A stretch of 41,614 nt of DNA from Phycisphaerae bacterium. GTDB taxonomy: Bacteria; Planctomycetota; Phycisphaerae; UBA1845. The stretch's first letter is position 1. The number at the start of each line of letters is the position of its first letter. Position numbers and translations under genes: made by a program. The stretch is from contig JAJDDT010000103.1 in the NCBI GenBank assembly GCA_029260165.1, positions 1 to 41,614 of the forward strand. The letters run 5' to 3'. Below the pieces are notes generated by a model. It did not search any database and was not told the origin of the DNA. It worked only from the letters and a program-made list of their open reading frames with translations. This document shows, one piece after another, positions 6,958 through 24,701 of the stretch.

Positions 6958-8207
6958 TGCGGATGAATTCGAGGTGGATGAAAATCGGCGTTTGTATGTT
7001 CGCAATAATGGTGACGCCGTCGATTGCGGATGAACCGGTGACCGGGCGGTGGCGGGCGTGGCTGGATTCACCGGGCGGGGAGTTGCCGTTTGGGTTGCAT
7101 TTGAAGCAATCCGGGGATGGCTGGTCGGCGTGGTTGATGAACGGTGAGGAGCGAATCGAAGTACCAGAAGTGCGGTTTGGGGATGGCAGGATCGTGCTGG
7201 ACATCGGGCACTACGATGCGGTTATCACGGCGAAAGTATCCGGACGCGGAAAACGGCTTGATGGTGAGTGGGCCAAGGCAACGAAGGACGGACAGGTGTC
7301 GCGATTGCCGTTTCACGCTCGACGGGACGGCGGTCCCCGTTTTGCGACGTCGAGCGGTGGTGGCAGAGCGGCAAAAAAACTGGCCAATCGATGGAAGGTT
7401 AGGTTTGAGAAGAGCGATGAGCCTGCCGTGATGTTGGTGGATCACCGATCGGACGGGCGGGTTCTTGCGACGGTCATGACGACGACGGGGGACTATCGGT
7501 TCCTGGAGGGCATGTTTGAGGCTGGTCGGTTGCGGTTGTCGGTGTTTGATGGTGCGCACGCGTTTCTGTTCGACGCAACGTTGCAATCGGATGGTCGGCT
7601 TGTCGGGCATTTCTGGTCGCGTGATGTTTGGCATGAGACGTTTGAGGCGGATCCTGATCCGACGGCGACGGTGGCGGACGGTTTTGGTGCGGTGGGGTTT
7701 GATCCGGATTTTGACATGAGCGCGCTTTCGTTTCCGGGTTTGGATGGCAAGCTGCGAAAGTTCTCGGAACCTGCGTTGTCGGGGAAAGTGCGCGTGATTG
7801 AGGTGTTCGGTTCGTGGTGTCCGAACTGTCACGATGCGTCGACGTTCCTGCAGTCGCTCTACAAGCAATATCGATCGGAGGGGTTGGTCGTCGTTGGGCT
7901 TGCGTTTGAGTTGACCGGTGATTTCACGCGCGACGCGCGGCAGGTGAAACGGTTTATCGAGCGGGTTGATGCAACGTATCCGATGCTCGTGGCTGGCAAG
8001 GCGGACAAGGGGTCGATCCCGAGCGTGTTGAGGTTTCTAAAGTCGTTTCGGGCGTATCCGACAACAGTGTTTGTTGGCGCGGACAATCGGATCAAGGCGG
8101 TTCATACAGGGTTTTCAGGTCCCGCGACGGGACGTCACTACGACGAGCTACGCGCGGAGTTCGTGAAAATCATCGAAGAAATGCTGGCAGAAGCGAATAA
8201 AAAATAA
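6957..8207 (+). CDS. TlpA/ResA-like thioredoxin-domain protein
   Basis: This 416-residue exported protein begins with a signal sequence (MKIGVCMFAIMVTPSIA). The first 250 residues form a beta-rich region of unknown function. The C-terminal domain carries GSWCPNCHD, the CxxC of TlpA-type thiol oxidoreductases, followed by AYPTTVFV with the cis-Pro segment. It probably reduces or exchanges disulfides outside the cytoplasm, perhaps in cytochrome maturation; that role is inferred from the family. It starts within the stop of the adenine deaminase gene, so the two are co-translated despite having no obvious shared chemistry. Confidence 0.9.
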   Translation: MRMNSRWMKIGVCMFAIMVTPSIADEPVTGRWRAWLDSPGGELPFGLHLKQSGDGWSAWLMNGEERIEVPEVRFGDGRIVLDIGHYDAVITAKVSGRGKRLDGEWAKATKDGQVSRLPFHARRDGGPRFATSSGGGRAAKKLANRWKVRFEKSDEPAVMLVDHRSDGRVLATVMTTTGDYRFLEGMFEAGRLRLSVFDGAHAFLFDATLQSDGRLVGHFWSRDVWHETFEADPDPTATVADGFGAVGFDPDFDMSALSFPGLDGKLRKFSEPALSGKVRVIEVFGSWCPNCHDASTFLQSLYKQYRSEGLVVVGLAFELTGDFTRDARQVKRFIERVDATYPMLVAGKADKGSIPSVLRFLKSFRAYPTTVFVGADNRIKAVHTGFSGPATGRHYDELRAEFVKIIEEMLAEANKK

Positions 8208-9057
8208 CGCGGATCGCAGGGTATGTCGCGCAATTCAAACGCGGCGACATCCAACGAGCGAAGCATTGTCGCCATACTCGGTAACGCGCATGACCTGGAA
8301 CTGTTCCCTGTTTCGGGTCCGGGCAAGCCATACCTGATCGCCACAGCAGGGTTCGTTATTGCGGTTGGTCACGAAGCTGATGCCGCTGACGGATTCGTCG
8401 CTGAGCAATCCGACGTTCCGGCTGATCTGATGATGACCACCCCACGAAACCCGCCCCACAGCCGCTCGTCGATTCTCATGTCTGCGATTGTTGGACCATC
8501 GACCGTCTGTCATGCGGATTCTCCCGTTGGGCGTCGGTTTGCGTCAGGCTTCGATTTCCGCGTAGATGAGATTCAGCCCGCCCGCCAATGGCGCGACGCG
8601 ACGCACGACGGCGAACCTGAATCCGTATTTGTCTGCCTGTTGTTGCACATGGGGCGACAATCGCTTGCCAACACACGGCGTGTCTCTCTCATCGGCAACG
8701 AAGACTAATCCATGCAGGGAGCGCTGGACGAGTCTGCTCTCGCGGGGACGCCTGCCACGATAAAGTCGCCACTGAATTCTCTGGTTGGTCCACCACCGCT
8801 GCGAGCGCCGACGCTCCCTGCGCGATGGCTGAACTTCCGAGGAAACCAGTGACGTTAAATACTGACGCATTGTTCGTAGCATCCGGCGACGTGATTTTTT
8901 CGCATTTTCTACTGGCCGCTGTCCTGGCCGAGACAGCCGGCGACGTGACGACCCCAACTGTAAAAGAAATATCGGCGAATGCAAAAAAAAACTCAAAAAA
9001 ACCTCCTGTTTTGTTGTGCGAATGCAAAATACCGAAAAACGGGGTGGGGCCTGGTTT
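8208..9057. other. Interval without a confidently assigned gene
   Basis: Between the TlpA-like gene and the clear part of the next membrane protein there is no gene I can defend. A 161-codon frame runs at 8223-8708 on plus and overlapping frames of 150 and 92 codons run on minus at 8544-8996 and 8235-8513. None has a recognised domain or a good ribosome site. The minus pieces (ending GFRFAVVRRVAPLAGGLN and containing REQFQVMRV) look somewhat protein-like and could be the remains of one frameshifted gene. Around 8985-9005 there are A-runs, which would suit a promoter or upstream region. Confidence 0.4.
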
Positions 9058-10471
9058 GGACGATAATGCCCATGTGAATACGCAGTTGCACAACTTCATT
9101 CCCGGACGCACAATAAACACCCGCGTGAAAGACGAATCCCGACATTCGCATTCAGCCTGGTGGAAGGTGCTGTCGGCTCCCTGGGTGGGTGTCGTTTCGC
9201 CGTCGTGGGCGTGTTCGACGCTCGACGGAGCGCGTACGACGACGATTGTTATCCTGGCCTTCATTCTGGCGGCGGTTTGGTCGTTCGTTGGGTTTCTCTC
9301 GACGCTGTTCTGGTTTGGGATCGAACGCAAGCTGGTCGATGGCAAGACTCAAATCGTGATCCGATCCATCGGGGACGTCTGGTACGGCTGGCAATTGGAG
9401 GGTTGGTTCGGAACGGGTGGACACGTCGGGCTTGTCTGCGTGACCGTGTTTGTCGTTGTGATGCTGGTTGTCGCAGCCATGCATGTTGTTTCGATTCATC
9501 GAACGAGCGGTTTTCAGGGCTTGCTTTGCTCGTACGGACGATCGATTCGGGCGGTGTTGGCGATCGGTGGCTGGGTGGTGATACTGAGCGCCGTACTGGG
9601 AAACTTCGTGGGCATCGCACGCCATCAGTTCATGATCGTGCTACCCAAGGAGCCTTCGTTGGCGATGGTCCTCGCCTGGGTTGTCGCTGCGACGTCGGCG
9701 TGTTTTCTCACACTGCGCATGAGCAGATGCACAGCGTTGCTGCGTGACAGGATCAGCCCCACCCTTCCACCGCGGTGCGAAACCTGCGGATACGATCTTT
9801 CCCATACGGACATGAACGGTCGCTGCCAGGAGTGCGGCGATCCCTGTACCCATTCGATCGGCAGGAACCGCATTCGACAGGGTTGGGCGTGGCAGTCGAA
9901 ACCAACCGCCTGGCGATGGATGGTGACCACGTTCCACGTCGTGTTCGGGCCGACTCACTTTTACAGTCGTTTGTCAGTCCGCCGGGACAGCGACGAACAC
10001 GTCCTGTTCGGTCGTATTCATCTGTTTGTAATAGCGATGATGGCGGCGACGTGGATATTCTGCATGCTCTCATTTGCAGACGGATCGTCCCAAACCACTG
10101 TGACCGTCGTCTCTCTGGTTGTGTTTCTCGTACCCATTTTCGGGTGGCTGACGCATCGCGTGGTCATGATGGCTTGCACCGGCGTGTTGCTGACGACGAA
10201 CCCTCCGGAAGATTTCCGATGGGCGTGGGTGGCGATGTGCTACGAGACGGCGTTTCTCTGGTGCTTCTGTGCGGTCGGGGGTTGCTTCATCACCGGCGGT
10301 GTTCTCAGTCGCGAGTTTCGCGAAATCGTCAGGTCTGTTGCAGCATACCTGCCGGTCATTGCGCCACCGCCCGATTTGATTCTGCTCCTGATGCTTGAAC
10401 TGTTGCTCGCGGTCGTCTGGATCTGGCGGATGAATCGTGTCGTCGCAGCCATCCGATTCAACAACAGCTAA
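8825..10471 (+). CDS. Multi-pass membrane protein with a CxxCGYDL zinc ribbon
   Basis: The open frame codes for up to 548 residues, but the first 100 or so are low in family character and have no ribosome site. The true start may be later, for example GTG at 9125, just before WWKVLSAPW. The body has three membrane segments, then CETCGYDLSHTDMNGRCQEC, a CxxC...CxxC zinc ribbon of the kind that ends or divides many planctomycete membrane proteins, then four or so further hydrophobic segments. The function is unknown. Four cysteines in two pairs are intact, so metal binding is likely. Confidence 0.7.
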   Translation: MAELPRKPVTLNTDALFVASGDVIFSHFLLAAVLAETAGDVTTPTVKEISANAKKNSKKPPVLLCECKIPKNGVGPGLDDNAHVNTQLHNFIPGRTINTRVKDESRHSHSAWWKVLSAPWVGVVSPSWACSTLDGARTTTIVILAFILAAVWSFVGFLSTLFWFGIERKLVDGKTQIVIRSIGDVWYGWQLEGWFGTGGHVGLVCVTVFVVVMLVVAAMHVVSIHRTSGFQGLLCSYGRSIRAVLAIGGWVVILSAVLGNFVGIARHQFMIVLPKEPSLAMVLAWVVAATSACFLTLRMSRCTALLRDRISPTLPPRCETCGYDLSHTDMNGRCQECGDPCTHSIGRNRIRQGWAWQSKPTAWRWMVTTFHVVFGPTHFYSRLSVRRDSDEHVLFGRIHLFVIAMMAATWIFCMLSFADGSSQTTVTVVSLVVFLVPIFGWLTHRVVMMACTGVLLTTNPPEDFRWAWVAMCYETAFLWCFCAVGGCFITGGVLSREFREIVRSVAAYLPVIAPPPDLILLLMLELLLAVVWIWRMNRVVAAIRFNNS

Positions 10472-23162: not shown

Positions 23163-23522
23163 CTATGGTCGTCGCCCACGCCCTCTGCCTCGTTTCGGTT
23201 TGGGTTGCTGGACCGCGCCCATGAACTGATTCAGGTCGGTCCCGCCGAGAACTGCAATCTGTTTCTTCTGCATGTCGTACCGGTACTGGATCACGCGTTT
23301 CATCGCGGTGTTCAGCACATAGAGTGATTCCTCCTGGTCGCGAAGCTCACCGACAATCATGATGTAGTCACCGCCACGATCACCCATCCCGGATGCGACC
23401 GCGCGTTCCGGCTGAATGCTGATCAGGATCAACCCGACAAACAGCACAATCGCGGTCGTGCTTAGAACACCAATCGCCAAATCCTTCTGATTCATTCCGG
23501 TTTTCTCTTGTAATTCTGACAT
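23163..23522 (-). CDS. Small membrane protein with beta-rich domain, paralogue of the gene upstream
   Basis: This 119-residue protein has one membrane segment (IGVLSTTAIVLFVGLILISI), then a domain reading DYIMIVGELRDQ, LYVLNTAMKRVIQY, IAVLGGTDLNQF, and a Lys/Arg/Gly-rich end. The domain lines up along its length with the protein at 23540-23827 (NFISVTCRA, LYILDLGQRRLMCF, MKFGGDRDLGQDF). The pattern LYVLDxxxxRLxxY recalls propeller blades. The start at 23522 has GGGAG eight bases upstream; a GTG at 23543 overlaps the previous stop. Function is unknown. It is the last gene of a three-gene operon. Confidence 0.72.
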   Translation of the reverse strand: MSELQEKTGMNQKDLAIGVLSTTAIVLFVGLILISIQPERAVASGMGDRGGDYIMIVGELRDQEESLYVLNTAMKRVIQYRYDMQKKQIAVLGGTDLNQFMGAVQQPKPKRGRGRGRRP

Positions 23523-23539
23523 ATTGATTTCTCCCGGAA

Positions 23540-23827
23540 TCACCTGTTGAAGTCCTGTCCCAAATCACGATCGCCGCCAAACTTCATCTGACCCTTCAGA
23601 TTTCGGTCCGGCACGAAGCACATCAATCGACGCTGGCCGAGATCAAGAATATACAGAACATCAAATTCATTGTCGGCCCGACAGGTCACCGAAATGAAAT
23701 TGCTCGACGCCCCGGCTCGCTGGGCGAATGCCTCTGGCAACGAATAAGTACTCAACACCATGGCCACGAGCAGAAAAACATTCAGACCCACCAGGCCTGC
23801 AATGATACTTCGTTTGCTTGGCTTCAT
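23540..23827 (-). CDS. Small membrane protein with beta-rich domain, first paralogue
   Basis: This 95-residue protein has one membrane segment (IIAGLVGLNVFLLVAMVL), a signal-peptidase-like EAFAQ, and a beta-rich domain that matches the downstream 119-residue protein over about 50 residues. It is probably exported and could be cleaved or stay anchored. The start at 23827 (MKPSKRSII) is the natural one, and the ORF continues in frame to 23869 without a better site. Similar small proteins occur in planctomycetes, as I recall, without an assigned function. Confidence 0.72.
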   Translation of the reverse strand: MKPSKRSIIAGLVGLNVFLLVAMVLSTYSLPEAFAQRAGASSNFISVTCRADNEFDVLYILDLGQRRLMCFVPDRNLKGQMKFGGDRDLGQDFNR

Positions 23828-23887
23828 TTGTACACTCCCTATGAATAAAAATTCACCGACCGGGGTCACCCGGCAGGTCAGACAGAT

Positions 23888-24094
23888 TCAGCCCTGATGC
23901 GTTCGTTTCGCGTTTTTCGTCGAAATCGCGATGACCAGTGCGGCTGCGACCATAACAAACGCCCACTGCATCCAGGGCGATGATTCCTCCTGGATCGGCG
24001 ATTCTGCCTGCGCGAACACAAATTCCGCGCACACAGCCCCGACCATCACAACGAACAACATCAATCGACGACCTTTTTGAAGGCAACTTCTCAT
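23888..24094 (-). CDS. Small exported protein with C-terminal membrane segment
   Basis: This 68-residue protein has a signal peptide (LMLFVVMVGAVCAEFVFA, cut after FAQA-like), a short acidic stretch, and a membrane helix (WMQWAFVMVAAALVIAIS) with a basic end. It is the first gene of the three-gene operon and stands 17 bases after the predicted transcription start. GGAAGGATGG precedes the ATG. It has no recognised family. Confidence 0.6.
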   Translation of the reverse strand: MRSCLQKGRRLMLFVVMVGAVCAEFVFAQAESPIQEESSPWMQWAFVMVAAALVIAISTKNAKRTHQG

Positions 24095-24117
24095 GCCCCA
24101 CCATCCTTCCGCGTTTG

Positions 24118-24145
24118 ATTATAGCACCAGTCCATCCACCGTCGA
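24118..24145 (-). promoter_or_regulatory. Extended -10 promoter for the small membrane protein operon
   Basis: On minus the sequence reads TCGACG, 16 bases, TATAAT, with TGC directly before the -10 (an extended -10). The -10 occupies 24123-24118 and the -35 24145-24140. The predicted start is near 24111, giving a leader of about 17 bases to the ATG at 24094. The -10 is a perfect match, so a sigma-70-type factor is implied. Confidence 0.65.
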
Positions 24146-24191: not shown

Positions 24192-24701
24192 TCAACCCGC
24201 ACGCTGGACCGGCTCTGCCATTTCGCGAAACCGCCGCGTCGGCATCGATAACGTATCCCACCTGGCTGACCTCTTTCGAGCGTGCTCCTGATAGGCGGTC
24301 ACCGAAATCCACAGGAACGAATAATGCGCACCCTTGTACGAATGTACATGGGATGTGGGCAATCGATCATCAGGCCCCAGTAGCAGGTACGCAAACACGA
24401 ACACCCCGACAAATCCCTGACCAAAAACACCCTGCCATTGTGACAAACCATTCATGTCCTCGCGCGTCACCCAATTCTCCCAATATCGCTTGCTCGTCGG
24501 CGTGTCATAGGGAAACTTGCGGCCTTTGACATCAACCAGCCACGTCTCACCAGGATCGCGATACAACAGAAAATCAAAAGACTTGACCCGCGCACCGGAG
24601 AAAATAGCTTTGCGATGTTCATCGACCGCAATATAGGCAATACCCTGCGATCGCAGGTAATCCTCAAACGCCGCTTCGTAATGAATATACCGACGCGTCA
24701 T
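24192..24701 (-). CDS. HYExAFE-family protein
   Basis: This 169-residue protein begins RRYIHYEAAFEDYLRSQ, the motif that names the HYExAFE family. The following FDFLLYR and TWLVDVKGRKFP give an E, D, DxK order like that of PD-(D/E)xK nuclease folds; nuclease activity is inference, not shown. It starts three bases after the stop of hisS, so the two are co-transcribed. Some planctomycete genomes keep this pairing in my recollection, but I cannot confirm it here. Confidence 0.82.
   Translation of the reverse strand: MTRRYIHYEAAFEDYLRSQGIAYIAVDEHRKAIFSGARVKSFDFLLYRDPGETWLVDVKGRKFPYDTPTSKRYWENWVTREDMNGLSQWQGVFGQGFVGVFVFAYLLLGPDDRLPTSHVHSYKGAHYSFLWISVTAYQEHARKRSARWDTLSMPTRRFREMAEPVQRAG

Follow-up and report, generated by a model that had tools for sequence, protein, structure and literature searches.

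The window analyzed here is a 41,614-nt stretch of DNA from a Phycisphaerae bacterium (assembly GCA_029260165.1, contig JAJDDT010000103.1), and the locus of interest within it consists of three small genes, here called A, B and C, that are transcribed in this order (Table 1). The three genes are co-directional and closely spaced in the window, with gaps of 60 nt between A and B and 17 nt between B and C; in 35 loci, the B-C gap had a median of 31 nt and a range of -4 to 294 nt.

Table 1. Features of the A-B-C locus and of the related module elsewhere in the same genome. Positions are those of the window except where contig C117 is named.
Feature	Position	Strand	Basis or remark
Gene A, 68 aa	24094..23888	minus	ORF listing and family alignment
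Gene B, 95 aa	23827..23540	minus	ORF listing and profile search
Gene C, 119 aa	23522..23163	minus	ORF listing and profile search
B membrane helix, residues 5-27	23747..23815	minus	AlphaFold2 helix 5-27
B A-x-A-Q motif, residues 33-36	23720..23731	minus	possible signal-peptidase I site
B single-blade domain, residues 44-88	23564..23698	minus	AlphaFold2 strands 44-50, 56-62, 67-73, 81-88
C helix, residues 3-35 in model	23418..23516	minus	AlphaFold2
C single-blade domain, residues 53-96	23235..23366	minus	AlphaFold2 strands 53-61, 64-71, 76-83, 88-96
Promoter-like site before A: TCGACG, 16 nt, TGc-TATAAT	24118..24145	minus	weak
169-aa gene	24192..24701	minus	upstream of A; conserved neighbor, no Pfam family
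Receiver-like protein, 120 aa	22784-23146	plus	downstream of trio, convergent; read by eye
D, own genome	C117:928-1323		blade gene
HTH protein, own genome	C117:1439-2623		profile E 1.4e-6; Pfam HTH_17 only E 0.037
OmpA lipoprotein, own genome	C117:2763-3629		Pfam E 5.3e-16

A preliminary description of this DNA had the operon start at a clear extended -10 promoter. The TATAAT hexamer (24123-24118) with TG before it is indeed present, and together with the TCGACG element upstream it reaches 10 of 12 positions. However, two such promoter-like sites were found when 1.1 would be expected from shuffled sequences, and nothing similar was seen by eye before A in the sister species. The site is no better than chance, and on these two grounds we dropped it as evidence.

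The surroundings of the trio differ between lineages. Upstream, beyond A, lie hisS and a 169-aa gene that has a dN/dS of 0.05 in comparison with the sister species. Counterparts of this 169-aa gene precede B at 22 of 37 loci at the order level, where contig ends truncate some of the loci, and at many of those at the class level. Its product may be a small nuclease of the PDDEXK type, as residues such as SFDFLLY...WLVDVKGRKF suggest; the gene probably lies outside the mechanism of the trio. Depending on the lineage, the neighbors are hisS and the 169-aa gene, bioB-like and fabF-like genes, a signal-peptidase-I-like gene, or a plsY-like gene (names assigned by eye from sequence starts). Since neighbors vary between families, neither hisS nor the 169-aa gene was adopted as a mechanistic partner. 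For the receiver-like protein on the other side of the trio, no Pfam match at an E value of 0.01 was found; its gene comes after those of an NtrC-type regulator and a histidine kinase (by eye).

Of 40 genomes searched by profile, one of them that of the window itself, 37 contained B and the same 37 contained C, and a reading of both match tables placed B and C next to each other on one strand in every genome that had either of them (37/37). The three genomes without B and C were 63%, 85%, and 97% complete, and the last of these (G027) seems to lack the pair. The A profile matched in 31 of these 40 genomes, with its best match next to B each time. In a wider search across the class, which appears to be Phycisphaerae, 181 of 248 genomes had a match to the C profile; nine genomes of one family (f21) were without a match, and none of that family had one. 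At 20 more distant class loci (19 genomes, chosen by C match across families), B stood beside C in all 20, and the order A-B-C was found in 18. The order was C-B, with A absent, at L126 and B-C, again with A absent, at L132, and L135 carries an operon of the form B-C-A-B-C (8140-10101, minus strand), in which the pair is duplicated around A. These 20 class loci, like the 20 phylum loci and 12 HTH loci considered below, were selected among the profile matches, and in the case of the phylum loci mostly among the highest-ranking ones; the fractions given for them therefore do not come from random sampling, and some of their contigs end near the genes.

Thirty-six order-level loci contain a complete B; A was recognized by its tail motif at 28 of them and by its profile (E of 3e-4 or better) at six of the other eight (L069, L071, L075, L079, L094, and L096), with A lying some 700 nt from B at L071. 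L090 gave an A profile match only at an E of 2.0, and the A of L076, which is outside the profile count, is nearly identical by eye to that of L075. Two loci in which the start of B is missing at a contig end (L087 and L119) and one with only the end of B (L111) were dropped before these counts were made, and L080, with an unsettled C start, was excluded from the C alignment (A2) and from the gap and charge counts. The 18 relatives that came from the contig scan are all metagenome-assembled genomes.

We also considered whether these frames might be spurious, or a local curiosity of a single genome, as their small size and the lack of a database family might suggest. Comparison with the sister species gave a dN/dS of 0.20 for C, and dN values of 0.115 for B and 0.457 for A, both with saturated dS. 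With this constraint on C and with homologues in most genomes of the class, such a reading has practically no chance of being right; the counts for B and C among the 40 genomes and for C in the class rule out chance ORFs. A, B, and C are real genes, and the consistent pairing in many genomes that the preliminary description looked for as a mark of a system is well supported both among the 37 genomes and at the 20 distant loci.

The homology of B and C is likewise well supported. Compared as whole profiles, they gave an hhalign probability of 98.4% (E of 1e-14). Since the membrane helix could inflate this score, the comparison was also run on the blade regions only, and it gave 96.7% (E of 4e-10), while 20 column shuffles reached at most 3.6%. 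Judged by their profiles, B and C are true paralogues, and with the ORFs and the adjacency of B and C confirmed, the three-gene operon with tandem paralogues stands as first described.

AlphaFold2 models of B (17 sequences; mean pLDDT of 81.5, pTM of 0.47) and C (19 sequences; mean pLDDT of 81.3, pTM of 0.48) both predict a helix followed by a four-stranded antiparallel meander, after which C ends in a basic tail. The two models thus show the same meander rather than the differing folds that would have told against the earlier proposal. Foldseek searches with the two models returned no PDB match at an E of 0.001 or better (best E values of 0.22 and 0.36), and searches of the PDB by sequence returned nothing meaningful and no solved propeller. 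In VIA, nearly all of the best 50 rows for B were propellers by title (Z of 5.0 to 6.2, rmsd of 1.6 to 3.8). For C, propellers made up roughly half of the best 50 rows (Z of 4.8 to 7.0), and the rows were mixed, beginning with 5hal, KhtT, and YmzC and continuing with propellers, monellin, and others. All of these Z scores are below 8, a range in which the tool warns that a match may mean a common arrangement only, and the likeness to a propeller blade is therefore a statement on arrangement and shape rather than on descent. The suggestion that these proteins resemble single propeller blades thus agrees with the models and the VIA titles, but only at the level of arrangement. The unit of a propeller, a four-stranded antiparallel meander, is what both models predict; a ring of four or more blades in one chain is absent, with one blade in B, in C, and in most copies of a third paralogue, D, and with two per chain at most in the relatives that were opened.

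No Pfam or NCBIfam match at cut-off was obtained for A, B, and C of the window or for eight phylum relatives, the lowest E being 0.00037, for SGL in the two-blade protein of L174. Three of the 36 C members also gave SGL matches below cut-off, the best of them with an E of 0.019. Pfam scans of alignment members gave best E values of 0.013 (A8) and 0.0029 (A2), listed without cut-offs, and the scan of B covered the window member. The blade proteins scanned are without a convincing Pfam or NCBIfam match. In six of 36 B sequences, namely, those of the window and its five nearest relatives, positions 49 and 70 are both cysteine, and outside those six they are mostly Ala, Gly, or Val. We dropped the idea of a disulfide between neighboring strands, as the pair is confined to these six sequences and, in the model, strand 1 bears one of the two residues and strand 3 the other. 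These strands do not adjoin in a meander, so the model leaves the pair unexplained as a disulfide.

Gene A had been described as having a signal peptide and a second helix, and both were found. The signal peptide looks typical and has an A-x-A-Q site, with A28|Q29 as the likely point of cleavage; a second hydrophobic membrane helix follows at about residues 43 to 58, and the protein ends in a conserved N-A-K-R-T-H (K-R-x-H) tail that is presumably cytoplasmic. Q29, W44, K63, and R64 are invariant in the family alignment (n = 17). In two f2 genomes, A is fused behind a thioredoxin domain (L088:9522-10148 and L089:10255-10890, minus strand), with CGPC and CGYC motifs and Pfam Thioredoxin matches at E of 2.3e-19 and 2.9e-16, respectively. 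The fusion suggested a thiol role, but the B proteins of these two loci are without a blade cysteine, and we therefore treat that role as a lead only.

The N-terminal helices of B and C are the better conserved parts of these proteins. In the B helix, L12 and N16 were found in 36 of 36 order sequences and L19 in 35 of 36, and all 21 B proteins from the class level had the Asn as well (19 by script window; L139 and L140, where it lies slightly earlier, by eye). In the C helix, a patch of the S-x-T-A type (S-T-T-A in the window) was found throughout the 36 order sequences; by eye it is lost in some class families, e.g., at L136. Conservation was 0.65 for the helix of B versus 0.58 for its blade and 0.76 for residues 15 to 35 of C versus 0.51 for its blade (19 sequences), whereas the signal peptide of A, at 0.33, is not conserved. 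Cleaved signal peptides rarely show such constraint. Given this contrast with the signal peptide of A, the helices of B and C are unlikely to serve for export alone. The net charge of B is +2.0 at the N terminus and +0.56 after the helix, which suggests an N-in topology; for C, no topology signal was found in the charges.

These observations have to be weighed against the sequences that follow the helices, where 34 of 36 B proteins have an A-x-A/G-Q motif and all 36 C proteins have A-x-A/G, much like the A-x-A-Q of the typical-looking signal peptide of A. B and C could accordingly be cleaved by signal peptidase I at A-x-A and assemble with each other as soluble periplasmic single blades, so that only A would stay in the membrane. 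We consider this somewhat unlikely, as the helices are of sufficient length for a membrane span, exceed the blades in conservation, and bear the invariant Asn in B and the S-x-T-A patch in C. We favor a retained anchor for both proteins, with cleavage at A-x-A as the other possibility. The view that B and C are membrane proteins, as first proposed, is therefore likely to hold on account of their long conserved helices, although the A-x-A site could allow cleavage.

Relatives outside the class connect the B-C pair to other blade proteins. Among 294 genomes searched, the C profile gave 84 matches in total, and outside the class it matched 70 genomes labeled as belonging to the same phylum. At L178 and L183, both from family f58, one protein contains two blades in B-C order. 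In the L178 protein, the first blade scored 21.4 bits with B and 8.6 with C, and the second scored 44.6 with C and 28.2 with B; in the L183 protein, the first blade was nearly tied (26.2 bits with B, 24.7 with C), and the second scored 36.7 with C and 23.5 with B. The blades are spaced by 60 residues in L178 and 58 in L183, and at L178 a small gene with a signal peptide and a helix lies upstream of the fusion. L189 and L191 have tandem blade genes without an HTH match; those of L189 (7073-8432) are two adjoining genes that each encode two blades per chain, with no adjacent HTH match.

Most of the phylum loci that were opened contain D, a third blade paralogue with a single blade, directly before a gene for a protein that begins with an HTH_17-like domain and continues with an acidic linker and a membrane helix. 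D and the HTH gene were neighbors at 16 of the 20 phylum loci opened, and an OmpA lipoprotein was found in 10 of those 16. Within the class, the HTH protein profile matched in 79 of 101 genomes, and D lay in front of the HTH gene in 9 of 12 opened loci. Judged by eye, the linkers of several class HTH proteins have a motif in common that approximates SGSGLLDLTRESDDTSLGAELLDEIYP. Blade-only hhalign comparisons gave 97.9% for B with D and 98.1% for C with D, and 20 column shuffles of each reached at most 6%; by the same profile measure as before, B, C, and D are homologous. On contig C117 of the window's own genome (L220:928-3629), D, an HTH_17-like membrane protein, and an OmpA lipoprotein follow one another in a row. 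D of this genome had no Pfam family at cut-off and is without a name in the libraries searched. The blade genes of this genome thus number three or more and fall into two operons. In the window itself, neither an HTH nor an OmpA gene was seen adjoining A-B-C (ORFs by eye; hisS and the 169-aa gene by Pfam). Most simply, A-B-C would be a duplicated, class-level offshoot of the phylum-wide D theme.

We tentatively propose that A-B-C encodes a small inner-membrane pair of B and C blades, together with A, that derives from the D module and acts in envelope sensing or coupling; this is the reading we prefer, though we hold it with less than even confidence. B and C would each place one blade-like meander on the periplasmic side behind an N-terminal helix, and the two may act as an obligate pair whose helices meet through the invariant Asn of B and the S-x-T-A patch of C. 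The two blades would pack side by side, as expected for the natural two-blade fusions. A would be a third single-pass subunit with its K-R-x-H tail toward the cytoplasm, a possible inward-facing element. The likely job, sensing in the envelope or coupling of periplasm and cytoplasm, is one that we infer from the kinship of B and C to D and from the HTH and OmpA neighbors of D. OmpA family proteins bind peptidoglycan. As neither kind of gene was seen at the A-B-C locus, the sensing role rests on this relative. The preliminary suggestion that the paralogues assemble with each other gains from the natural proteins with two blades in B-C order, but the pairing itself is our interpretation; the suggestion of more copies is partly borne out by D, a separate third blade gene in the same genome.

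The small size of the three proteins, their single helices, and their class-wide retention at one locus would also fit a role as accessory subunits of some known, larger membrane machine whose genes lie elsewhere, in the manner of CydX, which the available text of PMC4325964 describes as a small subunit of cytochrome bd. The neighbors change by lineage, however, and include no constant machine, and we regard this explanation as improbable. The homology of B, C, and D, together with the HTH_17-like protein with a membrane helix that adjoins D at most of the phylum loci, raises a further alternative, namely, that A-B-C is a second copy of the D-HTH-OmpA signaling module in which A replaces the HTH protein, forming a co-component sensor like ToxR/ToxS. 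ToxR has a periplasmic domain, whereas the HTH protein continues past its membrane helix with no more than a short tail or a second helix. The HTH_17 assignment itself reached the Pfam cut-off in one of four phylum HTH proteins scanned and fell short of it in the window's genome (Table 1). A, at 68 aa, is without a DNA-binding domain; it is too small for one and had no such Pfam match, so that the membrane-anchored DNA-binding protein expected of a ToxR/ToxS-like operon was not found. We therefore judge this alternative to be quite improbable. A bolder extension of the B-C pair that we prefer is that B and C are separate blades that close, as several B-C pairs, into a hetero-oligomeric membrane propeller, a living counterpart of the proposed single-blade ancestor that has been kept across the class, with D kept across much of the phylum; we regard this as a long shot.

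In our searches of the literature on planctomycete and Phycisphaerae small proteins, single blades, and ToxR-like systems, the matches listed, as far as their text was available, contained no description of these genes. As far as these searches reach, one-blade proteins kept as an operon pair are undescribed; the shape of the blade itself is known. C, found class-wide, and the related module spread over the phylum had no match in the libraries searched, and B, C, and D are candidate envelope genes for planctomycete biology. Natural single-blade proteins also bear on the origin of propellers. A single-blade ancestor of propellers has been proposed (PMC9218822, in the text available), and another study reports, in its accessible portion, that the WD40 blades tested singly failed to fold and that hetero-oligomers were not obtained (PMC6805158). 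B, C, and D would allow both points to be tested on natural proteins.

Among known structures, the models of B and C resemble the blades of beta-propellers (WD40/PROPPIN, DPP4, DDB1, and others), sharing with them a four-stranded antiparallel meander of ~45 to 50 residues at an rmsd of mostly about 2 to 3 A. The known propellers differ in that they comprise between four and twelve blades, which nearly always belong to a single chain according to the accessible sections of PMC3797127 and PMC6805158, whereas B and C have one each and no sequence match to a solved propeller. C also resembles YmzC of Bacillus subtilis (3kvp), a small "precursor" protein, with 49 of 49 residues aligned at a Z of 6.2 and an rmsd of 2.1 but with only 8% identity. 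As neighboring membrane proteins that would meet in the periplasm, the products of A-B-C are comparable to ToxR/ToxS and VtrA/VtrC, termed co-component systems in the portions seen of PMC9214523 and PMC7265457; these systems have a DNA-binding partner, whereas the A-B-C operon is without one. Another counterpart is the D-HTH-OmpA module, which likewise has a homologous blade with an N-terminal helix encoded by a small gene in a conserved operon. In that module, however, D is usually single and stands beside an HTH_17-like membrane protein and often one or more OmpA lipoproteins, whereas B and C are paired with each other and accompanied by A.
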